Shown piece by piece: positions 6,514 through 25,334 of a DNA stretch of 31,751 nt. The stretch comes from a virus. The stretch lies in IMG/VR virus record IMGVR_UViG_3300021962_000400, positions 1 through 31,751 of that record. One strand, written 5' to 3'. Within the stretch, counting starts at the first letter, position 1. Every line of letters starts with the position of its first letter. Position numbers and translations under genes: made by a program. The notes below the pieces were generated by a model that was given only the letters and a program-made list of their open reading frames with translations, searched no databases and had not been told where the DNA came from.

Positions 6514-7008
6514 TTGAATGACGACCTTGAGAGAAAAAATGAGGGCGAAGGGGGAGCTTCTTCTGGCTCATGCTCCTATCCTAACCCTTGGATGTACGAT
6601 GGTCACCACTTTGAGTCTGATGACATTGGCGACAACTTCGGTTTTGTCTACAGGATTACAAATAATGCAACGGGAAAATCCTACATTGGTAGGAAGTACT
6701 TCTGGTCAAAACGAAAGCCTAGAACTAGCAGTAGTAATAGACAAAGAAGAGTTACGATTGAAAGTGACTGGAAGAAATACTACGGAAGTTGTCCAGAGCT
6801 TAAAGAAGATATTAGGCAAAGCGGTAGGGATGGATTTTCACGAGAAATTCTTTCTCTCCACGGAACCCCAGGAAGGGTAAACTACGAGGAGACTCGTCAA
6901 TTATTTCTTCATGATGTGTTGACGAGTGCCTTGACAGATGGCACTCCTGCATACTACAATAGTAATATCCTCGGTAGATACTACCGAAAGGATTATTTCA
7001 ACAAATAA
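6514..7008 (+). CDS. GIY-YIG nuclease-like protein
   Basis: The domain begins at PWMYDG and contains the two signature strands, GFVYRITN and SYIGRKYFW, in place of the canonical GIY and YIG. It also has a conserved-looking WKKYYGS turn and a later NYEE that could provide the catalytic Glu. The family is found in T4-like phages as small nucleases and in homing endonucleases. No ordinary ATG with a ribosome binding site is visible: the frame is open from 6454, with TTG at 6514 as the first usual start and ATG only at 6592, inside the conserved PWMYDG motif. I give TTG with low certainty. An ATG at 6518 opens another frame that lacks family features. It sits before a tRNA cluster, a common neighbourhood for phage nucleases. 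Confidence 0.7.
   Translation: MNDDLERKNEGEGGASSGSCSYPNPWMYDGHHFESDDIGDNFGFVYRITNNATGKSYIGRKYFWSKRKPRTSSSNRQRRVTIESDWKKYYGSCPELKEDIRQSGRDGFSREILSLHGTPGRVNYEETRQLFLHDVLTSALTDGTPAYYNSNILGRYYRKDYFNK
6931..6960 (+). promoter_or_regulatory. Sigma70-type promoter TTGACA-18-TACAAT before the tRNA genes
   Basis: TTGACA at 6931-6936 and TACAAT at 6955-6960 are separated by 18 bases, inside the end of the GIY-YIG gene. Transcription would start about 50 bases upstream of tRNA-Thr, so this is the likely promoter of the first tRNA trio. Confidence 0.6.
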
Positions 7009-7939: not shown

Positions 7940-8254
7940 ATGCTGTCAACACAGTATCGTCTTCGTCTTGAAGGTATCTGTAAGAAGATATCAAACAAAG
8001 AAGAGGTGAATCTTGAGGATATGATTTGGGCAGAGAAACTTGCCAAGTCATATACAACTGCAAGAGACTGGTTAAACAAAGCACGACGCCAAGCAGCGGG
8101 AGATATTCAAGAAGGAAGTATGGATGATTTTATGAATAGGATGGGACTAGGAGACCCCGACCCATCCAACCATAGTACGGGGTTTAAATCTGCAGATGAA
8201 ATTGTAGATTGGTTCCAAAGAGATAAACCTGATGACTGGAGACAGCGTGATTAA
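7940..8254 (+). CDS. Hypothetical protein, 104 aa
   Basis: The product begins MLSTQYRLRLEGICKKI and is a helical, charged protein ending in DWFQRDKPDDWRQRD; it has no catalytic motif that I recognise. The frame opens at a TTG (7925), but the ATG at 7940 gives a more natural N-terminus. Its stop overlaps the next start (TAATG). Small proteins of this type are common between conserved genes in T4-like cyanophages. Confidence 0.7.
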   Translation: MLSTQYRLRLEGICKKISNKEEVNLEDMIWAEKLAKSYTTARDWLNKARRQAAGDIQEGSMDDFMNRMGLGDPDPSNHSTGFKSADEIVDWFQRDKPDDWRQRD

Positions 8255-8820
8255 TGATTGCTCAAATTTTAGATAACCTTTTTGATTATGACTATATGGT
8301 GCAGGTTGAGAAGACTATGCTCCATCTTCCTGTAACTGCTATCAATGAGGCAAACGGTACTGGTTATCCTGCAGGGCAACATGGCACTCATAAATTATTT
8401 GGTGAAAATCTTTTTGAAAGAAGTTCGATCAATCATATAGTTAACTGGACTCCCAAGTGTGAGTGTTTCTTTAATATGTTCGCTCATATTGAGGAGCAGG
8501 TTGACTTTCCTCTTCTTTTAAATAGAATCGATTTCAACCTACAACACTCTTTTTGTGATGGTACATCCCATGTTGATGGAGATCCTGGAGATTACACCAT
8601 CATGTATATGGTGAATACTAAATGGGACTCTAAAGAATGGGGTGGTCAATTTCAAATTGTAAATGAAGACAATGAAGTTATAGAGGAACATGAATATGTT
8701 CCTGGTAGAGTTCTTATCTTCCCGTCTGAAATTCCTCACAGGGGTCTAGGACCACGCCATCCTTATGTGTATAGATATACTGTGGTCTGGCGCGTCAGAA
8801 AGTTAGAAGATGTGCTATAA
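8254..8820 (+). CDS. 2OG-Fe(II) oxygenase with HxD...H triad
   Basis: The 188-residue protein has the classical triad H106-x-D108 (TSHVDGD), distal H162 (EIPHRGLGP) and the 2OG-binding R174 (YRYTVVWRV). GRVLIFPSEIPHRG is the usual C-terminal strand of prolyl-hydroxylase-like enzymes. The substrate is unknown. The gene is coupled to the upstream gene by a TAATG overlap, and its end contains the extended -10 promoter that serves tRNA-Gly. Confidence 0.88.
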   Translation: MIAQILDNLFDYDYMVQVEKTMLHLPVTAINEANGTGYPAGQHGTHKLFGENLFERSSINHIVNWTPKCECFFNMFAHIEEQVDFPLLLNRIDFNLQHSFCDGTSHVDGDPGDYTIMYMVNTKWDSKEWGGQFQIVNEDNEVIEEHEYVPGRVLIFPSEIPHRGLGPRHPYVYRYTVVWRVRKLEDVL

Positions 8821-8910: not shown

Positions 8911-9441
8911 ATGACAAAACAAAGACCAAGCATTCTTGCAGTGGATAAAGCTTTATCTCCTGAAGATTTTAGAGAAGTATCCAATTTTGCTTACAATGCT
9001 TCTTATACTTATGGAGAGACGGACGAGGAAAAATTTAAACCAACTGGATTAGTTTCTGAGTTGGATCCAGATTGTGAACAAGATACAGAAATTGTTGACA
9101 TTCTAAATGGTATCGTTCTTGATAAGTTTCCAGAACTTGAAAGTTACGAATTATACAGAGCATATATTAATTGTTTTGCTCCTAGAGAAATAGCAAACTT
9201 TCATCAAGATTGTGAAGATGATGAAGATCAAATTACAATTCTTTTTTATGCAAATAAAATGTATAATGGACTAAATGATGGGGGAACTACAGAATTCTAT
9301 CTAGATCAAAAGATCATTGCTATTCCTCCAATTCCAAATACTCTTGTTAAATTTACTTCTTGGGTATTGCATAGAGCAACTCCTTTAGTTTCTGAACATC
9401 GTTTTACATATGCATTCAAATACCGTAAAGAAAATAATTGA
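8911..9441 (+). CDS. 2OG-Fe(II) oxygenase with HxD...H triad
   Basis: The 176-residue protein has H98-x-D100 (NFHQDCED), distal H154 (WVLHRATPL) and R164 (EHRFTYAFKY), the complete iron and 2OG site. It starts eight bases after tRNA-Gly without a visible ribosome binding site, and its 3' end overlaps the next oxygenase frame. It is A+T-rich. The order of oxygenase, tRNA, oxygenase, oxygenase, tRNA is repeated around it. The substrate is unknown. Confidence 0.87.
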   Translation: MTKQRPSILAVDKALSPEDFREVSNFAYNASYTYGETDEEKFKPTGLVSELDPDCEQDTEIVDILNGIVLDKFPELESYELYRAYINCFAPREIANFHQDCEDDEDQITILFYANKMYNGLNDGGTTEFYLDQKIIAIPPIPNTLVKFTSWVLHRATPLVSEHRFTYAFKYRKENN

Positions 9442-11534: not shown

Positions 11535-12527
11535 ATGAGAGCATTAATTACAGGAATAACAGGACAGGACGGTTCGTACCTTGCCGAATTTCTTCTCCAA
11601 AAGGGGTATGAAGTTCACGGCATTGTACGCCGTTCTTCTTTAATTAATACGCATCGTATTGATCACATCTATAATAAAATCCATAAACATTATGGAGACA
11701 TGACTGATGCAGGTAACCTCATGAGTTTGATTCAAAAGATCAAACCTACTGAGGTGTATAACCTTGCTGCCATGAGTCATGTAAAGGTGTCTTTTGATAT
11801 GCCTGAGTATACGGGAGAAGTTGATGCTCTAGGAACCCTGCGTCTCCTAGAGGCTATTCGTTTATTGGAACATCCTTGTAAGTTCTATCAGGCATCCACA
11901 AGCGAACTGTATGGACTTGTTCAAGAGGTCCCTCAGAAAGAGACCACTCCTTTCTATCCTCGCTCACCATATGGTGTAGCAAAGATGTATGCATATTGGA
12001 TTGTTAAGAACTATCGTGAAGCGTATGGTATCCATGCTAGCAATGGCATACTTTTCAATCATGAGTCCCCACGGAGAGGTGAAACCTTCGTTACCCGTAA
12101 GATCACGAGAGGACTCTCACGCATCTCTAGTGGACTCCAAGATGTCCTAGAACTAGGCAATCTGGATGCTCAGCGTGATTGGGGACATGCATTAGATTAT
12201 GTTCGTGGTATGTGGATGATTGTTCAGCACGAAACTCCTGATGATTTTGTTCTTGCTACAGGTGAGATGCGTAGTGTTCGTGAGTTTGTTAACGAATCTG
12301 CATCTTACTTTGGATTCAATATTGAGTGGCGTGGAGAGGGTCTTGATGAAGTTGGATTCTGTAAGAATCTCAACAGAGTGATCGTTCGCGTAGACCCTAA
12401 ATACTACCGCCCAACAGAAGTAGAGCAACTACTTGGGGATGCAACAAAAGCAAAAACTGTGCTAGGATGGGAACCAGAATATAGTTTCCAAGATCTTGTA
12501 GAAGACATGTGTATTAACGGACAATGA
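11535..12527 (+). CDS. gmd: GDP-mannose 4,6-dehydratase
   Basis: This enzyme converts GDP-D-mannose to GDP-4-keto-6-deoxymannose, the first step towards GDP-L-fucose and other 6-deoxy sugars. It is an extended short-chain dehydrogenase: the NADP-binding glycine loop [12 protein letters not shown] lies at residues 7-18, RRSS follows the second strand, the catalytic Thr and Glu are in ASTSELYG, and the Tyr/Lys pair is in [28 protein letters not shown] and [17 protein letters not shown] are diagnostic for GMD. At 330 residues it is near the normal length. It opens an eleven-gene run of overlapping glycan genes and pairs with the GDP-fucose synthase at 13771. Confidence 0.97.
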
Positions 12528-13774
12528 GTAAATTTCACAGAATTGAAAAGTGCAGAGTATGTGGTAATGAACACCTGATCACAGTCTTGGATCTTGGTGA
12601 TCAATATCTTTCTGGCATTTTTCCCAAAGAGATCGATGAGGACATGTACAAAGGTCCTCTCACTCTCGTCAAGTGTGACGAGTCTAAAGGTGGATGTGGT
12701 CATGTTCAACTAGAACATACCTTTGATCTTCCTACCATGTATGGTGAAGAGTATGGTTATCGTTCTGGTCTGAACGGTAGCATGGTTCGTCACCTGCGTG
12801 GAAAGGCAGAGAAGATTATGCGTGATGTCAAGTTTAACTCTGGCGATATCGTAATTGATATTGCAGGTAATGATGGCACCTTCTTGGGGTTCTTCCCCCA
12901 TGATCTGCAACTCATGAGCATTGATCCCACCTCGAAAAAGTTTAGAGATTACATTCCTGAGAATGTAAATTATATTGCCGACTTCTTCTCTTCCGATGTT
13001 TATCGTGAGCGGTTCGGTAAGCAGAAAGCAAAGGTAGTTACATCGTTCTCGATGTTCTATGACCTTGAAGATCCCTGCGAGTTTGCCCGCCAGGTCCATG
13101 ACATCCTTGATCCTCGCGGAATCTGGGTGCTTGAGCAAAGTTATATGCCAACGATGCTGCGGGTCAATTCGTTTGACACAGTATGTCATGAGCATCTCTC
13201 CTACTATGGTATGAGACAACTCAAGTACATCATGGATAAGTCTGGATTCAAGATTGTTGATTTTGAATTCAATGATGTTAATGGTGGTAGTATCTCTGTA
13301 GTAGTAACTCCTTCTACCAACAGTGAGCGTAAGGAATGTACAGTAAAACTTACTGCTCTTATTGCCTCAGAGTTGGAAGACAAACTGGATACCGTTGAAC
13401 CTTGGGAAGCTTTTGCAGAGCGTATTAATGCCTGTAAGAAACAGTTCTGGGAAATCATGGACTTCTATCGTCGTAATGGTTCTAAGATCTGTGCCCTTGG
13501 TGCCAGCACTAAAGGAAATGTAACGCTGCAAACCTGGGAGATTGGTCCTAAAGATGTTGCCGCTGTTGGTGATGTTAATCCTGACAAAGACGGATCCTTT
13601 ACACCTGGAACTTGGATTCCTATTACTAGCGAAGAGAGTGTGCTGGAAAAAGAATATGATCTTCATATTGTTCTTCCCTGGCACTTTAGAGATTTCTTCC
13701 TGAAGAATGAAAAGTTTAAAGGTCGTCGGTTCTTATTCCCACTTCCCGAACCTGAAGTCGTAATTATTCCATGA
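12524..13774 (+). CDS. NDP-sugar C-methyltransferase (TylC3-like)
   Basis: The 416-residue protein has the three-part plan of sugar C-methyltransferases. First comes an N-terminal zinc-binding segment (CRVCGN and [10 protein letters not shown]), then a class I SAM domain with [15 protein letters not shown] as motif I and [10 protein letters not shown] after strand 2. The C-terminal domain contains [16 protein letters not shown] and [12 protein letters not shown], known from this family. It would add a methyl group to a carbon of a keto-deoxy sugar nucleotide, perhaps the product of GMD next door, giving a branched sugar. It is joined to gmd and to the GDP-fucose synthase gene by ATGA overlaps. 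Confidence 0.88.
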
Positions 13775-14724
13775 AACTGAGAACAATGCAGAAACACGCA
13801 AGAATTTTTGTCGCTGGTCATCGTGGTTTAGTTGGATCTGCCATTGTTCGCCGTCTTCAAGAAGAAGGTTATGAGAACATCATTACTAGAACTCGGCAGG
13901 AGCTTGATCTTATGGATCAGTTTGCTGTCGAAAAGTTCTTCAGGTCTGAAGGTATCGACTATGTGTTTGATGCTGCTGCTCGTGTCGGTGGTATCCATGC
14001 CAATGATACTTACTCGGCAGAGTTTATCTACCAGAACACTCAGATCCAAACCAACCTTATTCACTATGCCTGGAAGCATGGTGTACAAAAGTTTCTTTTC
14101 CTTGGAAGCGTATGTATCTACCCTAAGTTTGCACCGACTCCTGTAAAGGAAGAGTCTCTGATGTCTGGAGAACTGGAGCCTACCAACGATGCGTATGCTC
14201 TTGCTAAGATCCATGGCATCTACATGCTGAGGTCTTACTACAAGCAGTACGGGTTCAAGGGTGTCTCCCTGATGCCTGCCAATCTGTATGGTCCTAACGA
14301 TAACTTCCACCCCATGAACGGGCATGTGATCCCTGCTATGCTCCAGAAGTTCAACAACTGGACCGTAGGAGACGCTCCAGTGACCTGCTGGGGCACAGGC
14401 ACCCCTCGTCGTGAGTTTCTCTATGTTGATGACCTTGCAGACGCATGTCTCTTCGCTATGGAGAACTACGAGTCTGCAGAGTTGTTGAATGTTGGATCTG
14501 GTGAAGATGTGACCATTGCAGAACTTGCTAACATGGTCGCTAATGTAACTGGGTACACAGGGAAAATTGAGTGGGATACTTCTAAACCTGATGGCACTCC
14601 CAAGCGTCCTCTTGATTACTCCAAACTTTTAGATAAAGGTTGGAAACCAAAGTACAATCTTCAAGATGGTCTACGCGAAACCTATAAGTGGTTTATTGAA
14701 AACACTGATATTCAAACGAGATGA
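13771..14724 (+). CDS. fcl: GDP-L-fucose synthase (epimerase/reductase)
   Basis: This enzyme finishes GDP-L-fucose from the GMD product by 3,5-epimerisation and 4-reduction. Visible features are the NADP loop VAGHRGLVGSAIV, the catalytic Ser and Cys in LGSVCIYPK, the Tyr/Lys pair in YALAKIHGIYM, and NLYGPNDNFHPMNGHVIPA with the active-site His. WGTGTPRREFLYVDDLADA is diagnostic. The second Ser of the usual GSSCIYP motif is Val here, but the catalytic residues remain. An inner ATG at 13786 is possible; the ATG at 13771 gives an ATGA overlap with the upstream gene. At 317 residues it is the normal size. Confidence 0.96.
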   Translation: MKLRTMQKHARIFVAGHRGLVGSAIVRRLQEEGYENIITRTRQELDLMDQFAVEKFFRSEGIDYVFDAAARVGGIHANDTYSAEFIYQNTQIQTNLIHYAWKHGVQKFLFLGSVCIYPKFAPTPVKEESLMSGELEPTNDAYALAKIHGIYMLRSYYKQYGFKGVSLMPANLYGPNDNFHPMNGHVIPAMLQKFNNWTVGDAPVTCWGTGTPRREFLYVDDLADACLFAMENYESAELLNVGSGEDVTIAELANMVANVTGYTGKIEWDTSKPDGTPKRPLDYSKLLDKGWKPKYNLQDGLRETYKWFIENTDIQTR

Positions 14725-15530
14725 TTGGTATTAACTATGTCGGCAAGATGAAAGAGCGTCTTGCCAATCAAATGTTTCAGTATGCTGCTGTAAAGGGTAT
14801 CGCTGCTAATCGGGGGTTCAACTACTGTGTTCCCCCATCAAATTATAAGAACAAAGCAGATGAATGGAATGAGCATCAACTGTTTGTTCCCTTTGAACTT
14901 TCAAGTTTAAGTGCTCTTCAGGTTCAGTCTATTGATCAAGATCGTCCCATTGTCAGGGAAGAGTCTTTTGAGTTTGATGAGAATCTCTTTAACAATTGTC
15001 CAGACTTTGTAAGTATATTTGGTTTCTTCCAGTCAGAAAAATACTTCAAGCACATTAGAGAAGATCTTCTCCTTGACTTTAAATTCAAGGATGAGTATCT
15101 GGAACCATGTAAGAAGATGATTACGGATGTCACTAATCCCATTGCATTACATGTTCGTCGTACTGACTACGCCAATTATTCTCACCATCCTATTTGTGAT
15201 ATAAATTACTATAAGGAAGCGTTGGCAAGGTTCGACTCTAATCGTGAAGTGATTATTTTCTCTGATGATCCAGAGTGGTGCCTCCAAGAAGAAATGTTCG
15301 ATAACGACAGGTTCTTAGTTTCCGAAACAAATGATCAGTATCTTGATCTTTGTATGATGTCTCTCTGCAGTGATTTTATTATTGCTAATAGTTCTTTTAG
15401 TTGGTGGGGAGCATGGCTCTGCACTAATCCGAACAAGAGAGTAGTCGCACCATCTAAATGGTTTGGTCCTCCTCTGAATCAAATCAATGACACTAAAGAT
15501 CTGTATTGCGAAGGTTGGGAAGTGGTATGA
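14721..15530 (+). CDS. GT11 alpha-1,2-fucosyltransferase
   Basis: This is a family 11 glycosyltransferase that moves fucose from GDP-L-fucose to the O-2 of a galactose-type acceptor. Diagnostic motifs are LANQMFQYAA at residues 14-23, HVRRTDY at 144-150 (the GDP-fucose binding HxRRxD), and ANSSFSWWGAWL at 222-233. The usual Gly-Leu-Gly before NQ is replaced by Arg-Leu-Ala, a small deviation. The gene overlaps fcl, the source of its donor, by ATGA and is followed at once by the GT6 gene, which suggests that the fucosylated product is the acceptor of the next enzyme. Confidence 0.93.
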   Translation: MIGINYVGKMKERLANQMFQYAAVKGIAANRGFNYCVPPSNYKNKADEWNEHQLFVPFELSSLSALQVQSIDQDRPIVREESFEFDENLFNNCPDFVSIFGFFQSEKYFKHIREDLLLDFKFKDEYLEPCKKMITDVTNPIALHVRRTDYANYSHHPICDINYYKEALARFDSNREVIIFSDDPEWCLQEEMFDNDRFLVSETNDQYLDLCMMSLCSDFIIANSSFSWWGAWLCTNPNKRVVAPSKWFGPPLNQINDTKDLYCEGWEVV

Positions 15531-16234
15531 AAAATGCAACAGTTGCAATAATTTTTATTGGTACTAATAAGTATCTTAATTTTTTTCCTGGATACTATGA
15601 GTCTTGTGAAAAATATTTGTTTCCCGAACTTCGTAAGCAATACTTTATCTTTACCGATGGTGAAATTGTAGGGGATGCATTACCTGACCATATAACAGTC
15701 CTGAAAATTCCTCATAAAGAATGGCCCTCTATTACCTTAGAGAGGTTCCATACGATCTTGTTAGCACAAGAAGAGTTGGAGGAGCACGATTGGTTGTTAT
15801 TCCTTGATGCTGATATGAAAGTCAATCAGGAAATTTCTCCTGAAGAATTCTTCAAGTTCGGCAAAGATTATATTGCTGTCCATCATCCATGCCATTACAA
15901 TACTGGAACTGGGACCTTTGAGCGGCGTCTTGAATCTGAAGCATGTGTGACTGGAGAACAACAGTCTTACTATCAAGGATGTCTATGGGGAGGTAGGATT
16001 GAGTCTGTAATTCCTATGATGAAACTCTTGAGAGATAGAGTTGACAAAGACTATGAAAATGGTATAATTGCCTTATGGCATGATGAGAGTCATTTGAATA
16101 GATTCTTTATTGAAAATCAGGATGAGGTTAATGCTCTACCTCCTGACTATGCATTCCCCGAATGTTTTCCAAACTATCCTTACGAGCAAAAAATTATTCA
16201 CCTAGCCAAAGATAATTCATCTTATCAAGTATGA
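15527..16234 (+). CDS. GT6 glycosyltransferase (blood-group A/B transferase family)
   Basis: Family 6 enzymes add Gal or GalNAc in alpha-1,3 linkage to galactose and include the human ABO transferases. The 235-residue protein is only the catalytic domain and has the GT6 landmarks in order: an N-terminal strand AIIFIGTN, FFPGYYESCEKYLFP, the metal motif DAD at 94-96 in LFLDADMK, YYQGCLWGG at 148-156 (equivalent to the donor-selecting YYxGxxxGG), WHDESHLNRF at 184-193, and LPPDYAFPE. Bacterial members often carry NxN at the metal site; here DxD is kept, as in vertebrates. The four donor-specificity positions read QGCL, so Gal versus GalNAc cannot be told. The start at 15527 gives an ATGA overlap with the GT11 gene. 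Confidence 0.9.
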   Translation: MKNATVAIIFIGTNKYLNFFPGYYESCEKYLFPELRKQYFIFTDGEIVGDALPDHITVLKIPHKEWPSITLERFHTILLAQEELEEHDWLLFLDADMKVNQEISPEEFFKFGKDYIAVHHPCHYNTGTGTFERRLESEACVTGEQQSYYQGCLWGGRIESVIPMMKLLRDRVDKDYENGIIALWHDESHLNRFFIENQDEVNALPPDYAFPECFPNYPYEQKIIHLAKDNSSYQV

Positions 16235-16932
16235 GCGACCCTAATGCCTGGCAAATGCCAACCTTTTACACTGCTGAAAAAGCAAGTGAAATCCGTTATA
16301 AATTCCCTGGACTTGAACTGGTAAGTCATCAGAATTTTTCTCAGTGTTATCAGGATATGTTTGTCCTGTGTATGACTGATGGAAGACCGAGGGGAACATT
16401 CGTTGAGATTGGATCTGGTCATCCTATTATTTCTAACAATACTGCTCTGCTTGAGTCTCGTTTTGAATGGGATGGTATTGGATTTGAAATTAAAGAACAT
16501 GAGTCTGATCTTTATAACAAACATCGTAGAGCAAAGGTTGCTGTAGGTGATGCAACTACTGCTGACTTCGATGAACTGTTTGAGGAAGTTGGTCTTGGTC
16601 CTACCTTTGATTACCTTCAGGTAGATTGTGAACCTTCTTCTGTTACCTTTGAGGCACTGAAGCGTATCGATCTTAATAAGTATAAGTTCGCCACCATCAC
16701 CTTCGAGCATGACTCTTACAACGATGGTCCTGAAGTCCGTGATGCTTCTCGTGAGTATCTTGAGTCATTCGGTTATGTTCTTATTGCTGACAATATTTCC
16801 GTTGACGATCAGCATCCTTTCGAAGATTGGTGGGCTCATCCTGATCTTGTCCCTTCTCATACTATCGATGCTATGAAGTGTGTGACTGGAGAAACTAAGA
16901 AAGCAGAAGATTACATGCTGGGGAGAGTCTGA
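16231..16932 (+). CDS. FkbM-type methyltransferase
   Basis: The 233-residue protein has the FkbM pattern: SQCYQDMFVL before the SAM domain, then GTFVEIGSGHPIISNNTALLE as motif I and WDGIGFEI. Later strands are FDYLQVDCEPSS and FATITFEHDSY, with a histidine and aspartate near the expected metal/catalytic region. Such enzymes often O-methylate sugars or small molecules. In this cluster a role in capping or decorating the glycan is likely. It is joined to both neighbours by overlaps of one to four bases. Confidence 0.85.
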   Translation: MSDPNAWQMPTFYTAEKASEIRYKFPGLELVSHQNFSQCYQDMFVLCMTDGRPRGTFVEIGSGHPIISNNTALLESRFEWDGIGFEIKEHESDLYNKHRRAKVAVGDATTADFDELFEEVGLGPTFDYLQVDCEPSSVTFEALKRIDLNKYKFATITFEHDSYNDGPEVRDASREYLESFGYVLIADNISVDDQHPFEDWWAHPDLVPSHTIDAMKCVTGETKKAEDYMLGRV

Positions 16933-17855
16933 TGCGTTGTGTTCTCTGGGGATATCCTCTTCACTCTGACACATATTCATATGTGCATGAAGGATTTCAA
17001 AAAGCATTAGAGAGAGCAGGTCACGAAGTCTTTTGGTTCCATGACAATGAGTATCCTGAAGACTTTGATTATGATGACTGCGTGTTCTTTACAGAAGGGT
17101 ATGCTGATAAAAATATTCCTTTGAGGAAGAACAGCACATATTATGTGCATGTATGTGTGAATCCTGAGAAGTATCTTGGCAATGTCAAGAAACTGATTGA
17201 CATGCGTTACCATCAAGATAAGATGGATAATGATAACTATGAATTCGATCACGATGTCACCCAGTTTGAAGAACTGGACACTGGCGTATGTGTTGATCGT
17301 GCCATGTCAAAGGAAAAAGGATATGATATCTCTTACTTAGCGTGGGCAACTGATATTCTTCCAGAAGAATTTAATGAAGACTGGGTAAACATCCAGAGAG
17401 AGAATACTTTCTATTTTATCGGTAGTATTTCTCCCGATGGTAGATTTATGAACGCACATCTTATTAAAGAGTTTGCTCAGTTATGTGCTAAAATTGGTGT
17501 GGATACTGTATGGTCTAACCCTTGGACTAACCCTATTGATGGTGAAGTCATGAGAGGATTGATGCAGAAATCTTTTCTTTCTCCCGACCTTAGAAATGAA
17601 ACTCATAAATTGTGGGGAACTAAAACTTGTAGAGTATTCAAGACTATGAGTTATGGTAATCTTGGACTTACAAACTCCCCCAAACTAGCAGAGTTTGCTG
17701 GTCCTGATGTTATTTGTAGGGAGAATATTTTAGAGTTGTTTGAAGAAGGTCTTCGTAATAAAGACGACAAAGAACTCATTCTTAGACAGATGCGTCATAC
17801 TAGAGAGCATCATACTTATGTCAATCGTATCAACGGACTTCTTAAATTACTATGA
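16932..17855 (+). CDS. Probable GT-B glycosyltransferase with CgeB-like C-terminus
   Basis: The 307-residue protein begins like a GT-B enzyme (MRCVLWGYPLHSDTYSYVHEGFQKALERAGHE, described here only by its ends: MRCVLWGY and ALERAGHEV). Its C-terminus matches the plan of the glycosyl transferase family 1-like CgeB domain: KTCRVFKTMSYGNLGLTNS, a segment ENILELFEEGL and MRHTREHHTYVNRI. The donor is unknown. The middle section (GVCVDRAMSKEKGYD) is not familiar. It is linked to the FkbM gene by a TGATG overlap and to the next transferase by ATGA. Confidence 0.7.
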   Translation: MRCVLWGYPLHSDTYSYVHEGFQKALERAGHEVFWFHDNEYPEDFDYDDCVFFTEGYADKNIPLRKNSTYYVHVCVNPEKYLGNVKKLIDMRYHQDKMDNDNYEFDHDVTQFEELDTGVCVDRAMSKEKGYDISYLAWATDILPEEFNEDWVNIQRENTFYFIGSISPDGRFMNAHLIKEFAQLCAKIGVDTVWSNPWTNPIDGEVMRGLMQKSFLSPDLRNETHKLWGTKTCRVFKTMSYGNLGLTNSPKLAEFAGPDVICRENILELFEEGLRNKDDKELILRQMRHTREHHTYVNRINGLLKLL

Positions 17856-18691
17856 CTAAACTGAGTTTTGGATTCATCGTTGGTGGCGATGATAGTTACT
17901 ATAAGAATTTGATGAGGGCTTGTGAATCCCTTGAGAGGATCGAACAAGATCATGAAATTGTTATCCTTGATATGGATGATCGGTTGGATATCGATGATCC
18001 TAAAGTAAAGATTGTCAAGGCAAATGCTGATGCTATTCGTAATGAGGATGATCGTAACTGGTTTCAACCACACATTTGGGCGGAGCGTTATAATGTCTTC
18101 AAGCATGTAGAAACTGACTACTGCATCTATCTTGATACCGATTGTGTAGTTGTCAATGATCGTGTTGATCAATTGATTGAAGAGGCACAAGATGATTTCT
18201 TGATTGCCCGTCACTGGTGGGTGCCTACCCTAGAAGATTATATCCGTAAAGTTCAAGTAGATAAGACTGGACTTGGAAAATATTTTCCAGAGGATCTTAG
18301 TACCTATGACTATGCTGCGTCGGGAGCATTCCTTTTTCAGAAGGGTAAGCATGATAATTTGTTTACTCGTTACATGGAAATCTTTAATGACATCTTTGGT
18401 GATGGTGGATTGCATGATGGTGTCACAGACGAGCTTGTTCTCTGTCTTGCCATGAACGAAGTTGGCGGATATAAATTTACTAACGGTGCATTCAATCATT
18501 GTGCTGCGGCAACTCAACAAGACATGAAACTTGTTGATGGTATTTGGTATGGTAAGAATCCTCAGGAAGATGAATACGAAAAAGTGTTTGCCTTCCATGC
18601 AGCATACCAAAACATTCCATCACTTATTGCACATAGCCCTGGATTTGTTAATCAAATTAAAGAGACGATGTATTGGGAGACTTACAGATGA
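17852..18691 (+). CDS. GT-A fold glycosyltransferase
   Basis: The 279-residue protein has the features of a metal-dependent GT-A enzyme: an N-terminal strand LSFGFIVGGDD, EIVILDMDD, and the DxD motif in YCIYLDTDCVVV. It continues with a core SGAFLFQKG and DELVLCLAMNE that resemble family 8/27-like folds. The donor and acceptor are unknown. Both ends overlap neighbouring transferase genes by four bases. Confidence 0.8.
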   Translation: MTKLSFGFIVGGDDSYYKNLMRACESLERIEQDHEIVILDMDDRLDIDDPKVKIVKANADAIRNEDDRNWFQPHIWAERYNVFKHVETDYCIYLDTDCVVVNDRVDQLIEEAQDDFLIARHWWVPTLEDYIRKVQVDKTGLGKYFPEDLSTYDYAASGAFLFQKGKHDNLFTRYMEIFNDIFGDGGLHDGVTDELVLCLAMNEVGGYKFTNGAFNHCAAATQQDMKLVDGIWYGKNPQEDEYEKVFAFHAAYQNIPSLIAHSPGFVNQIKETMYWETYR

Positions 18692-19650
18692 AAATTGCTT
18701 TGATTGGTCCTGGCATTATGCAGATTCCGCCTGATGGGTGGGGTGCTGTAGAGATGCTTATCTGGGATTACACCATGATCCTTAGAGACTTGGGTCATCG
18801 TGTTGAAATCATTAACACTCCCGACAGGGAACTAATCAAATTTGAAGTTGCTCACGGAAAGTATGACATTGTTCACCTTCATTATGATGTTTTCCATGAC
18901 ATCATTGATGACCTGGCTCCTTTATGCGGAGCACTGATCGTCTCTAGTCATTATCCATATGTTAATACTCCACATATGTGGGGTAGAGATGGTTATGGAC
19001 CCATCGCTCAAAAAATTGCTGCTAATAGAAAGCATCATATTTTCTGTTCATCTCAGAAAGATATTGATACCTGGATTAGTCTTGGTGCTAATCCTAATCG
19101 TGTCTGGTTGAGTAAACTAGGAGTTCGCCCCGAACCTTATAAGTTTGATGAGTTTGCTAGTTGGGATAGAACTCTTTGCTTCTCTCAGATTGTAGACCGT
19201 AAGCGTCAGTATCTCCTAGAGAAAATTGATAGCGTTGACTTTATGGGTCGCATGGAGTTTGGTGGTAAGTTTGATAAGAGGAATAAGAACTATAAGGGAG
19301 AAGTCGTTAGAGAAAAACTCAATGAGTACATTACTTGCTATTCAAACATTGCTCTCTTGAGTGAAGTTGAGAATACCACTCCTCTTGTTATTAAAGAGGG
19401 ATTGATTTGTGGACTTGGTGTTGTTTGTTCGGAAGCAGTTGCTCCTGAACTTGACACTTCTAAACCTTGGATTGATGTAATCCCAGAAAGCAAAATAAAT
19501 AACCTTGAATATGTTCTTGAGACAATCGAGAACAATAAAAAAGTATCTAAGCAGCATAGAAAAGAGATCAGAGAATACGGCATTTACGAATTCGGTCTTG
19601 AAAACATTCTTGCTTATGAATACATTCCGAAGTTGCAGTCGTTACTATGA
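18688..19650 (+). CDS. GT4-like glycosyltransferase, copy 1 of a tandem pair
   Basis: The 320-residue protein begins MKIALIGPGIMQIPPDGWG, the N-terminal Rossmann motif of GT-B transferases with the GWGAVE loop, then YDIVHLHYD. The C-terminal nucleotide-binding half has NTTPLVIKEGLICGLGVVCSE, the Glu-rich site that binds the donor diphosphate. It is clearly paralogous to the next gene: both share PP(D/V)GWGAVExLIWDY, HxHYD and VIPESKI. The start at 18688 gives an ATGA overlap. The donor sugar is unknown. Confidence 0.86.
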   Translation: MKIALIGPGIMQIPPDGWGAVEMLIWDYTMILRDLGHRVEIINTPDRELIKFEVAHGKYDIVHLHYDVFHDIIDDLAPLCGALIVSSHYPYVNTPHMWGRDGYGPIAQKIAANRKHHIFCSSQKDIDTWISLGANPNRVWLSKLGVRPEPYKFDEFASWDRTLCFSQIVDRKRQYLLEKIDSVDFMGRMEFGGKFDKRNKNYKGEVVREKLNEYITCYSNIALLSEVENTTPLVIKEGLICGLGVVCSEAVAPELDTSKPWIDVIPESKINNLEYVLETIENNKKVSKQHRKEIREYGIYEFGLENILAYEYIPKLQSLL

Positions 19651-20600
19651 GATTCTCTATCGTTGGTCCCGCCACTCCTATCCCTCCCGTAGGTTGGGGA
19701 GCAGTAGAGAGTCTTATCTGGGACTACAAACTTACCTTGGAGAAGTTAGGTCATGAAGTTGACATCATCAATGTCTCAGATCCTAGAGAGATCATCAAGA
19801 GAATCAATGCGTTTCGCCCTGATTTCGTGCATATTCATTATGACGACTGGGTTGTTCTCTATCCTTATGTGCAATATCCTTGTGCGTGTACCACCCACTT
19901 TGCCTACATCGAACGCCCAGACAAGATGAATGGGTATGGGCAGATCTTCGGTCACTTCCAACGGACTAAACCGAATGTCTTCTGCCTCTCCGAAGGCATC
20001 AAGAAAGCGTATCAATTCTTTGGTGATATCCCAGAAGAGAAACTTGCTATCGTTCCTAATGGTGTAAACCTAGATCTCTTCCGCACCACGGATGAACCAG
20101 AGTTCCCTGACCGTAGTATCTACCTTGCCAAGATTGACTACCGTAAGCGTCAGCATAAGTTCCAGTCCATCGACAGTCTGTTCTTTGCTGGTAACATTGC
20201 TGACAAGAGGTTCAATGCTAACAAAAACTATCTCGGTGAATGGAAGAAAGAATATCTCCATGACTATCTGACTGACTATGGTAACCTTGTGCTCCTGTCT
20301 GATGGTGAGGCACACTCTCTGGTTATCATGGAAGCATTTGCTTCTGGTCTCGGTGTTGTGGTCAGTGAGTTTGCTACAGCAAACCTGGATCTTGATCGTG
20401 AGTTTATTACAGTTATTCCAGAATCAAAGATTGATGATGTGGAATATGTTGAGTATGCTATAATCAAGAACAGGGAGTATTCAGTCTCCCATCGGGAAGA
20501 GATCCTAGAGTATGCTAAAGAGTTTGATTGGACTAATGTCCTGCAAAACCATTACCTACCTAATGTGAACGAAGTGATTGCTAAGCATGGACAAAAATAA
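19647..20600 (+). CDS. GT4-like glycosyltransferase, copy 2 of a tandem pair
   Basis: The 317-residue protein repeats the plan of the upstream gene: MRFSIVGPATPIPPVGWG, FVHIHYDDW, VPNGVNLDLF and the donor-binding segment HSLVIMEAFASGLGVVVSE. The VPNGV(D/N) element, typical of family 4, is retained here and is lost in copy 1. Tandem duplication followed by divergence is the simplest explanation. The two enzymes may add successive sugars. The end overlaps the GT25 gene by 14 bases. Confidence 0.88.
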   Translation: MRFSIVGPATPIPPVGWGAVESLIWDYKLTLEKLGHEVDIINVSDPREIIKRINAFRPDFVHIHYDDWVVLYPYVQYPCACTTHFAYIERPDKMNGYGQIFGHFQRTKPNVFCLSEGIKKAYQFFGDIPEEKLAIVPNGVNLDLFRTTDEPEFPDRSIYLAKIDYRKRQHKFQSIDSLFFAGNIADKRFNANKNYLGEWKKEYLHDYLTDYGNLVLLSDGEAHSLVIMEAFASGLGVVVSEFATANLDLDREFITVIPESKIDDVEYVEYAIIKNREYSVSHREEILEYAKEFDWTNVLQNHYLPNVNEVIAKHGQK

Positions 20601-21378
20601 ATCTGCACCAAAACTCAAAGACATTCCTCATATCTATTGGTTGAACTTAGACGATAAAACAGATCGTCGTAAGTTTATGGAAGATCAATTTGCATATTGG
20701 CAAATTGAAAAACATACTAGGATCTCTGCCTATGACGGTCGTCATGATGACCTGAGTGATATTATTGCTGGTAAATATCCAGACAATATGTCATCGGGTG
20801 AGATTGGTTGTGTAACTTCTCACCTCAAAGCAATTCAACATTGGTTGGAAACTTCCACTGATGATTATGCTATAATGATGGAAGATGATTGCGATCTAGA
20901 AGTGGTCAAGCATTGGCCATTTTCTTGGAAAGATTTCTTTCGCCATGCACCTGCTGCATGGGATTGTCTCCAGATTGCAATCATCAACCCTGCGATGCCT
21001 GTCATGCAGATGCATTATCGCTTCGTAAATGACTTTTCAACAGCTGCCTATGTCATTAATCGCAGGTATGGTCATAAACTTCTCGATCTTTATACTAAGA
21101 ATGGGAAGTACAAACTAGATGGTAGAATTAAACCACGCGCTGTTGCTGATGATCTTCTCTACAACAGTGGTCTGACCTATGCCATGCCAATCTTAATGTA
21201 TAAGATTGCTCTTGGGTCAGACATTCATGACATGCATATCGATGTGTTCCATCGTAATTGTCATGATGCCCTTTGGAATTTCTGGAGGAACGATGCTAAC
21301 ATGGTTGAAGATTGGAATCAGTTCTTCGATCTCAATCCTTACCTTGGTCGGTTACCCCCTGGTTTTGAAGGGAAGTAA
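20587..21378 (+). CDS. GT25-family glycosyltransferase
   Basis: The 263-residue protein shows the GT25 (LgtB/LgtE-type) pattern. IPHIYWLNLDDKTDRR lies near the start, MSSGEIGCVTSHLKAIQHW is in the middle, and the acidic donor/metal motif is MMEDDCDLE. Family members are often beta-1,4- or beta-1,3-galactosyltransferases of lipooligosaccharide. An ATG at 20587 is taken as the start; a TTG at 20578 is in frame. It is the last gene of the sugar cluster; a late promoter follows five bases after its stop. Confidence 0.85.
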   Translation: MDKNKSAPKLKDIPHIYWLNLDDKTDRRKFMEDQFAYWQIEKHTRISAYDGRHDDLSDIIAGKYPDNMSSGEIGCVTSHLKAIQHWLETSTDDYAIMMEDDCDLEVVKHWPFSWKDFFRHAPAAWDCLQIAIINPAMPVMQMHYRFVNDFSTAAYVINRRYGHKLLDLYTKNGKYKLDGRIKPRAVADDLLYNSGLTYAMPILMYKIALGSDIHDMHIDVFHRNCHDALWNFWRNDANMVEDWNQFFDLNPYLGRLPPGFEGK

Positions 21379-24060: not shown

Positions 24061-24225
24061 ATGCCTAGAAGTATCGTGACAAAGAATGATCTCTTGTATA
24101 GAGTTTACAGATTAAAGAATGAACTCTATAATGGACAGCATTACGCTAAGAATGGTGACTGGCATGATGGAGCTCATGATGCTTTGAACAAAGTTCTTGA
24201 TGTGTTAAAAGAGTATTCTCAATGA
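24061..24225 (+). CDS. Hypothetical protein, 54 aa
   Basis: The 54-codon frame begins two bases after the previous stop and overlaps the halogenase start by ATGA. The product is soluble and helical (MPRSIVTKNDLLYRVYRLKN at the start). The gene-to-gene overlap makes it probable. No family is recognised. Confidence 0.62.
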   Translation: MPRSIVTKNDLLYRVYRLKNELYNGQHYAKNGDWHDGAHDALNKVLDVLKEYSQ

Positions 24226-25334
24226 AAATTGGTGTTGTTGGTGGGGGCAACGGCGGTTTAGTCGTTGCCCTATTTTTGATTAGAGAAACTTACGGTCAAG
24301 ATGTAGAGATTGAAGTTTATTACGATCCTAAGATTCCTATTGAGAAAGTAGGACAGGGATCTTTAGTAAACTTTGTCGGTCTTATTCATGAGATTCTTGG
24401 TGTCGATTGGTATAACAATGAGATCGACGCCACATTTAAATCAGGAATTTTGTATGAGGGATGGGGAAAGAAGAAAGATAAGTTCTTCAACCCATTTCCC
24501 ATGGATTACATGGCAATACACTACTCTCCAGACAAACTGAGAGAGTGTATGATTGCAAAGAAGGTATGTAAATTTATAGAAAGACATGTTGATGATTGCA
24601 ATGAATTGGATTGCGATTATGTCTTTGACTGTAGAGGAACTCCTAAAGATTTTTCTTATTACAACATCCTTAAGAATCCTTTGAACAGTGTTGTCTTAGG
24701 TCGGGACAGTTACAGAGATCCTGATCAGCACTGGACTCGTTGTATTGCTACTCCAGACGGGTGGTGCTTCGGCATACCCAACAAAGGATTTACTTCGTAT
24801 GGATATTTGTACAACAACAAATACACTTCCAATGAAGAAGCAAAAGTAAACATACAAAAAATGTTTGGTGTTACTCCGACCGATACTTTGCATTTCAATA
24901 ACTATCTTGCCAGGAAACCAATTCAAAATGATAAGGTTATCTTGAATGGTAATAGGTTGTTGTTTATCGAACCATTAGAAGCGAGTTCGGTTGAAACATA
25001 CTATCGTTGGACTTCTTTAGTTTGCCAATGGATCTTTGATGGAAGATCAAAGAGGTCGATCCTCCAAGAGCTTGTGACAGATGTCGAAGAGGTACAGAAT
25101 TTCATCCTCTGGCATTACGCTAACGGGTCTAAGTATGCTACAATGTTCTGGTCAGCAGCGGAGGAGATGAGTCGCTCTCATTCTTATGATCAGCGGTTCT
25201 TCGATTTCATCACTGATGCAAAGTCTAAGTCAAGACTTGAACTGATCAATGACGATACACCTACTTATGGTCATTGGTACACCACCTATTTCCGTAACTG
25301 GATTGACAATGTACATCCCTTGACAGGTCTCTAA
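24222..25334 (+). CDS. prnA: Flavin-dependent (tryptophan-type) halogenase
   Basis: The 370-residue protein has the FAD-binding start VVGGGNGGLVVA, then the catalytic Lys in ATFKSGILYEGWG (K73, equivalent to K79 of PrnA), and RKPI...NGNRLLFIEPLEASSVETYY, where E253 stands in the position of PrnA E346. The WxWxIP motif reads GWCFGIP, so the second Trp is Phe, and the STG after PLE that binds halide is replaced by A-S-S. PrnA itself is about 540 residues, so this is a short form. The family is known in cyanophages, but the natural substrate is not. It is coupled by ATGA to a small gene and precedes psbA. Confidence 0.85.
   Translation: MKIGVVGGGNGGLVVALFLIRETYGQDVEIEVYYDPKIPIEKVGQGSLVNFVGLIHEILGVDWYNNEIDATFKSGILYEGWGKKKDKFFNPFPMDYMAIHYSPDKLRECMIAKKVCKFIERHVDDCNELDCDYVFDCRGTPKDFSYYNILKNPLNSVVLGRDSYRDPDQHWTRCIATPDGWCFGIPNKGFTSYGYLYNNKYTSNEEAKVNIQKMFGVTPTDTLHFNNYLARKPIQNDKVILNGNRLLFIEPLEASSVETYYRWTSLVCQWIFDGRSKRSILQELVTDVEEVQNFILWHYANGSKYATMFWSAAEEMSRSHSYDQRFFDFITDAKSKSRLELINDDTPTYGHWYTTYFRNWIDNVHPLTGL

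Follow-up and report, generated by a model that had tools for sequence, protein, structure and literature searches.

A T4-like cyanophage (cyanomyovirus) represented by a 31,751-base IMG/VR virus record, analysed over its whole length and referred to here as the window, carried a GT11 alpha-1,2-fucosyltransferase-type gene overlapping a gene of the GT6 ABO-transferase family, downstream of genes for a GDP-deoxysugar that is probably C-methylated. The T4-like cyanophage assignment was based on the ribonucleotide reductase genes, photosystem II D1-family genes, tRNAs, and tail-fibre-like gene in the window. We are close to certain of the enzyme families as assigned; that the enzymes build an ABO-like branch on a host-surface glycan, with a deoxysugar that is probably 3-C-methylated, is a reading to which we give about an even chance. 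In humans, a two-step pair of GT11 and GT6 enzymes builds the ABO blood-group sugars: the GT11 enzyme (FUT1/2) makes the H antigen, and the GT6 ABO enzyme then adds Gal or GalNAc. The phage pair lay within a glycan operon of eleven genes, all on the same strand (11535-21378), and an independent IMG/VR contig (L004) held the identical cluster at 100% protein identity. The genes were as follows:

11535..12527, + strand: gmd (TIGR01472, 550 bits, cut-off 415; PF16363, E 2e-148)
12524..13774, + strand: CMT, a putative TylC3/TcaB9-type sugar 3-C-methyltransferase (PF08421, PF13489, PF08484; 4rv9, E 1e-40)
13771..14724, + strand: fcl, a GDP-fucose-synthase-like epimerase/reductase of the CMT-linked clade (NF047922, 446 bits, cut-off 500; PDB 1bsv, E 5e-105)
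14721..15530, + strand: GT11 alpha-1,2-fucosyltransferase-type enzyme (PF01531, E 1.4e-24; HxRRxD motif; GT-B fucosyltransferase fold)
15527..16234, + strand: GT6, ABO-transferase family (PF03414, E 3e-28; PDB BoGT6a, 6e-30, and GTB, 1e-23; model)
16231..16932, + strand: probable FkbM-like methyltransferase (no Pfam match of its own; 33% homologue in DSL-LC02 annotated FkbM)
16932..17855, + strand: glycosyltransferase, Glyco_trans_1_2 type (PF13524, E 2e-4, below cut-off)
17852..18691, + strand: putative glycosyltransferase (weak PF00535, E 0.007; retained across syntenic clusters)
18688..19650, + strand: GT4-type glycosyltransferase (PHROG 33732, E 8e-70)
19647..20600, + strand: GT4-type glycosyltransferase, paralogue of the 18688..19650 gene (PF13439, E 1e-10; PHROG 33732, E 2e-154)
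20578..21378, + strand: GT25 glycosyltransferase, last of the cluster, where the original prediction had placed it (PF01755, E 3e-11; PHROG 2835, E 1e-113)

The DSL-LC02 homologue of the 16231..16932 product matched PF05050 at its cut-off (E 1e-4). Among the genes of the cluster (11535-21378), none was recognised as encoding a ligase, a flippase, or an enzyme acting on a carrier lipid.

The predicted four-base overlap between GT11 and GT6 was the sequence ATGA at 15527-15530, with GT6 starting at the ATG at 15527 rather than at the upstream TTG (15506) given in the list of open reading frames; fcl and GT11 likewise overlapped by four bases (14721-14724). The motifs named in the original prediction were all present, HVRRTDY (the HxRRxD motif) and SSFSWWG in GT11 and DAD, YYQGCLWGG, and WHDESHLNRF in GT6, and both family assignments were upheld by profile and predicted fold, for GT6 also by phylogeny. 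The GT11 product (269 aa) scored 87 bits against PF01531 (curated cut-off 23.9) and matched PHROG 2644 (E 1e-103), and the columns H144, R146, and D149 were invariant in its alignment. Its model (pLDDT 80) was less certain than that of GT6, and the top Foldseek matches were FUT8, NodZ, and POFUT1 (probability 1.00, TM about 0.5), indicating a GT-B fucosyltransferase fold. GT6 scored 99 bits against PF03414 (curated cut-off 25) and matched PHROG 3317 (E 6e-88). Its AlphaFold model (mean pLDDT 92) was closest to Bacteroides BoGT6a (TM 0.90), and the proposed comparison with human GTA/GTB gave TM values of 0.84-0.89 with a shared GT-A fold. The GT6 tree and both folds placed the proteins inside their families, so the refuting outcome named with the original prediction, a placement outside GT11 or GT6, did not occur.

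The phage origin of the pair was supported, while its apparent peculiarity to one phage was not, as tblastn found 71 GenBank phage records with GT6 and 102 with GT11. For such phages the pair is nothing unusual, and dozens of related viruses carry it. Bellamy is an isolated phage with the pair. Of 75 distinct phage GT6 loci, 73 had a GT11 gene on the same strand, upstream of GT6: in 61 of these the two genes overlapped directly, 39 times by 4 bases and 22 times by a single base, and in 12 they were 0.6-2 kb apart. Chance overlap or motif coincidence was rejected on the profile matches, the 73 loci with an upstream GT11, and the fold match of the GT6 model, and a phage-specific one-off was rejected on the wide recurrence of the pair across phage records. 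GT11 was found within 3 kb in 42 of the 57 bacterial GT6 loci whose flanks extended 3 kb or more in each direction. The conserved pairing in phages and bacteria supported the two-step logic that had been predicted, and it is reasonably likely that GT11 and then GT6 act on one residue. None of gmd, CMT, and fcl was seen within the fetched flank of 24 IMG/VR GT6 loci, which suggested that the pair can spread with no GDP-fucose genes nearby. Its retention where those adjoining genes were unseen suggested that the branched structure itself is selected.

The GT6 of the window contained DAD, His120, WHDE, and Lys228, and the corresponding DXD, acceptor-site His, WHDE, and C-terminal Lys were kept in all 74 distinct phage GT6 sequences. 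The DXD was absent from 72 of 81 bacterial GT6 sequences, a difference that mapped to a single change on the GT6 tree. This tree, which comprised bacterial GT6 sequences and had human GTB as its root, placed the phage clade inside GT6, starred at 100 together with L017 and L018. The main phage clade sat on a long, well-supported branch (0.75, starred 100) and was joined by only two cellular sequences, from the metagenome bins of a Saprospiraceae (L017) and an Omnitrophota (L018), each with ~40% identity to the window. A vertebrate origin of the phage GT6 was not favoured, as the clade branched among bacterial sequences and had these two cellular relatives. Two adjoining GT6 genes were present at one bacterial locus (L091, Synergistaceae).

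The donor named in the original prediction, Gal or GalNAc, could not be read from the donor pocket, which was Gln266/Cys268, with Trp270, in 72 of 74 phage copies. Human A type is Leu266/Gly268 and B type is Met266/Ala268, as given in a review (PMC4202792), and by its residues the phage pocket is neither. The review also holds that a larger residue at position 266 excludes GalNAc (PMC4202792), and because Gln is about the size of Met, Gal would be slightly favoured over GalNAc, a weak preference drawn from residue size. With its metal-binding DXD and a pocket that fits neither the A nor the B type, the phage clade may represent a further natural donor-site type in a much-studied family. Two phage sequences of the P-SSM2 type had an Ala/Gly pocket and formed a separate lineage on the tree, indicating that phages acquired GT6 at least twice. 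One virus contig (L158) carried both phage lineages, a P-SSM2-type gene (34% identity to the window) followed by a Gln/Cys-type gene (48%).

Similar pairs are known from cells and from other phages. Escherichia coli O86 builds its B antigen using WbwK (GT11) and WbnI (GT6), the same two families acting sequentially on one galactose (PMC4202792); unlike the phage genes, these belong to a cellular O-antigen cluster, for which the available text describes no sugar C-methyltransferase (PMC4202792). The closest solved structure, that of Bacteroides ovatus BoGT6a (PDB 4ayj, 4cj8; 32% identity), belongs to an enzyme that transfers GalNAc to 2'-fucosyl-lactose (PMC3961637). Its C-terminal loop, YLYPE, resembles YAFPE in the phage enzyme, and the fold match to the acceptor complex 4ayj equalled the best among the structures compared. 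However, BoGT6a has NXN, is metal-independent, and has an Ala266/Gly268 GalNAc pocket (PMC3961637), in contrast to the DXD motif and Gln/Cys pocket of the phage enzyme. Prochlorococcus phage P-SSM2 carries GT6 (AAX44645) and GT11 (AAX44642) in one glycan cluster, so annotated in GenBank, but its GT6 is of the separate Ala/Gly lineage, two genes lie between GT11 and GT6, and the genome is without CMT. A single cluster of Synechococcus phage DSL-LC02 (OR032571) combines gmd-CMT-fcl with GT11-GT6-GT25 (CMT 66%, GT11 58%, and GT6 48% identity to the window), although in another gene order, with GT11-GT6 5 kb from fcl.

The GDP-fucose genes expected just upstream of the pair were there, as gmd and fcl, but they were not adjacent to each other: the CMT gene (12524-13774) lay between them and overlapped each by 4 bases. 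The sugar is thus probably not plain fucose as had been assumed, as this TylC3-type gene between gmd and fcl tracked with its own Fcl clade. CMT had the three domains of NDP-sugar C-methyltransferases (PF08421, PF13489, PF08484), and its best solved relative was the D-mycarose 3-C-methyltransferase 4rv9 (E 1e-40). The Zn-binding Cys4 (Cys10/13/51/58) and Glu223-His224 were kept in all 60 distinct phage copies and in TylC3. Of 68 distinct phage loci with CMT, 47 had it immediately between gmd and fcl, and 16 more, cut by a contig or locus end, were consistent with that order. Its position between gmd and fcl points to an NDP-4-keto-6-deoxysugar as the substrate, which would be methylated at C3, and production of a C-methylated GDP-deoxysugar appears quite likely. 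A comparable GDP-virenose route has been proposed in Coxiella, with GMD CBU_0689, TylCIII CBU_0691, and GMER CBU_0688 (PMC3539893). It involves the same three enzyme types and a proposed 3-C-methyl-6-deoxyhexose product, but it is a proposal for bacterial LPS, with no GT11/GT6 link and with the stereochemistry of the virenose route unresolved there (PMC3539893).

The fcl product, called Fcl-like because its 446 bits against NF047922 were under the equivalog cut-off of 500, kept Ser107, Cys109, Tyr136, Lys140, and His179 (E. coli numbering, also used below). The CMT-linked Fcl sequences formed one clade (SH-aLRT 100, stem 0.67) with a single exception. In all 44 sequences within that clade, Ser108, between the catalytic Ser107 and Cys109, was replaced by Val (Val114 in the window) and Lys283 by Arg (Arg279 in the window). 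Among CMT-free Fcl sequences, Ser108 was in the majority and Lys283 was found in 13 of 13, and E. coli likewise has Ser and Lys. The clade could reflect shared operon descent rather than a change of substrate. The exception (L224) is a phage that has CMT but an Fcl falling among the CMT-free sequences, and it offers a natural test of the need for the Fcl change. No origin of the gmd-CMT-fcl cassette in cyanobacterial hosts was found, the three-gene order occurring in 0 of 386 genomes of that phylum; CMT at 39-44% identity occurred in 12 of the 386. In three virus contigs (L248, L249, L250) with a CMT of ~50% identity, gmd lay downstream of that gene, not upstream; these contigs also had FkbM-like genes, and their GT11 and GT6 were in another part of the record.

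Eighteen CMT-bearing phage records, 17 from IMG/VR (chosen mainly as long contigs) and DSL-LC02, carried GT11 in 18 of 18 cases and GT6 in 17. Within the IMG/VR set the counts were 17/17 and 16/17, the remaining record having GT11 at the contig end; 14 of these 17 had shown no GT11 in the 6 kb flank, and it was located elsewhere in the record. Neither GT11 nor GT6 was found in 12 control cyanophage records (10 GenBank cyanophages, found through one short shared gene and possibly from few lineages, and two long contigs, nrdB contigs being mostly too short for length-matching). Related phages are not independent samples, and CMT and the glycosyltransferase genes are both located in glycan islands, so the co-occurrence may simply reflect large islands. 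No CMT match over cut-off was obtained in eight GenBank GT11-GT6 genomes, and many phages had GT11-GT6 without CMT, either with gmd-fcl or with none of the three genes, which indicated that the pair works without CMT. As all CMT records tested had GT11 and GT11-GT6 genomes exist without CMT, CMT was nested within the GT11-GT6 phages. The separate Fcl clade, its Val and Arg changes, and the co-occurrence with GT11 and GT6 suggested that CMT matters for the pair. The GT11 tree did not strictly follow CMT presence (8 label changes), so GT11 may be blind to the methylation, or the methylated sugar may serve a different transferase; whether GT11 uses the C-methylated GDP-deoxysugar is evenly balanced.

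We propose that these genes form an operon with which a T4-like cyanophage branches glycans in the cytoplasm. Gmd would make GDP-4-keto-6-deoxymannose, the TylC3-type enzyme would methylate it at C3, and the dedicated Fcl would epimerise and reduce the product to a GDP-3-C-methyl-6-deoxyhexose, perhaps with some GDP-fucose formed alongside. GT11 would transfer the fucose-like sugar, alpha-1,2, onto a galactose-type residue, and the translationally coupled GT6 would add a hexose alpha-1,3 to the same residue, yielding an ABO-shaped branched trisaccharide. The acceptor would most likely be a host surface glycan of LPS type, extended by the other transferases of the cluster; the cellular relatives suggest the host surface, not the virion, as its site. 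Such an altered surface would change the recognition of infected cells by other phages or grazers. In its most specific form, which we put forward only tentatively, cyanophages make a C-methylated ABO analogue: a virenose-type 3-C-methyl-6-deoxyhexose produced by the virus would be added by GT11 and then capped by a metal-dependent, Gln/Cys-pocket GT6. The host would be unable to produce the resulting surface antigen, which would go unrecognised by other phages or grazers. Were the sugar 3-C-methylated, the phage glycan could escape detection by standard blood-group antibodies and fucose lectins, and phage enzymes could be used to test the virenose-type pathway, which was proposed in silico (PMC3539893).

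A plain ABO arrangement, in which GT11 adds unmodified L-fucose, GT6 adds Gal or GalNAc to Fuc-alpha-1,2-Gal, and the C-methylated sugar is separate and used by another glycosyltransferase of the cluster, is possible but doubtful. It would accommodate the many phages that have the pair with gmd-fcl minus CMT or without all three genes, GT11 clades that do not track CMT, and an Fcl that keeps every epimerase/reductase residue. The presence of GT11 in every CMT record, with GT6 absent only once, on a contig ending at GT11, argues against it, as does the position next to GT11 of an fcl from a distinct CMT-linked clade, and no other cluster gene was shown to be a deoxyhexosyltransferase.

Two further explanations concern the second sugar and the site of the glycan. 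It is unlikely that the GT6, while a family member, uses a donor or acceptor other than Gal or GalNAc on fucosylated galactose, in a neighbourhood that is merely a set of surface-glycan gene islands. Direct overlaps at 61 loci, retention of GT11 even where gmd and fcl were unseen, the invariant acceptor-site His and WHDE, and a fold as near to the acceptor complex 4ayj as to any structure all speak against such different chemistry; in its favour are a pocket unlike those of human GTB, GTA, and BoGT6a (PMC4202792), the long branch with only two cellular sequences, and the 12 loci with GT11 and GT6 apart. Collagen GT25 enzymes start chains on hydroxylated residues. Decoration of the virion, with GT25 starting a chain on hydroxylated tail-fibre residues and GT11-GT6 capping it, would fit the several 2OG-Fe(II) oxygenases in the window, the GT25 that ends many phage clusters, and the collagen-like repeats of the relative DSL-LC02. 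Such repeats were absent from the window and its two closest IMG/VR contigs, however, and the best-known cellular GT11-GT6 pair serves O-antigen synthesis (PMC4202792), leaving this explanation very improbable. A collagen-like tail fibre as acceptor was sought in the window and none was found. In DSL-LC02, which shares the glycan cluster, ten collagen-like stretches (OR032571, 42235-46995) are possible GT25 acceptors.

Cyanophage GT6 genes have been in print since at least 2014, when Pham et al. counted them in two cyanophages (PMC3961637). The genes reported from phage S-SCSM1 include gmd, fcl, and one for an alpha-1,2-fucosyltransferase (PMC9602691), and soil phages with GT6 and GT11 were listed in a 2025 paper (PMC12016548). 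The literature searched, which covered few subscription journals, described neither the conserved overlapping pair nor the Gln/Cys pocket nor the C-methyltransferase, and their novelty is provisional.

Other genes of the window raised questions of annotation. The product of 6514-7008 matched PHROG 447, 'NAD synthetase', and also homing-endonuclease PHROGs, and the annotators of S-CAM9 identified the gene of that name as GIY-YIG; the PHROG name is probably wrong here. The genes at 8254-8820 and 8911-9441 matched PHROG 274, 'DNA endonuclease V', a name that looks wrong because Pfam assigned them to PF13640, 2OG-Fe(II) oxygenases. A tryptophan-halogenase family gene (24222-25334; PF04820, E 4e-31) adjoined the cyanophage photosynthesis genes.
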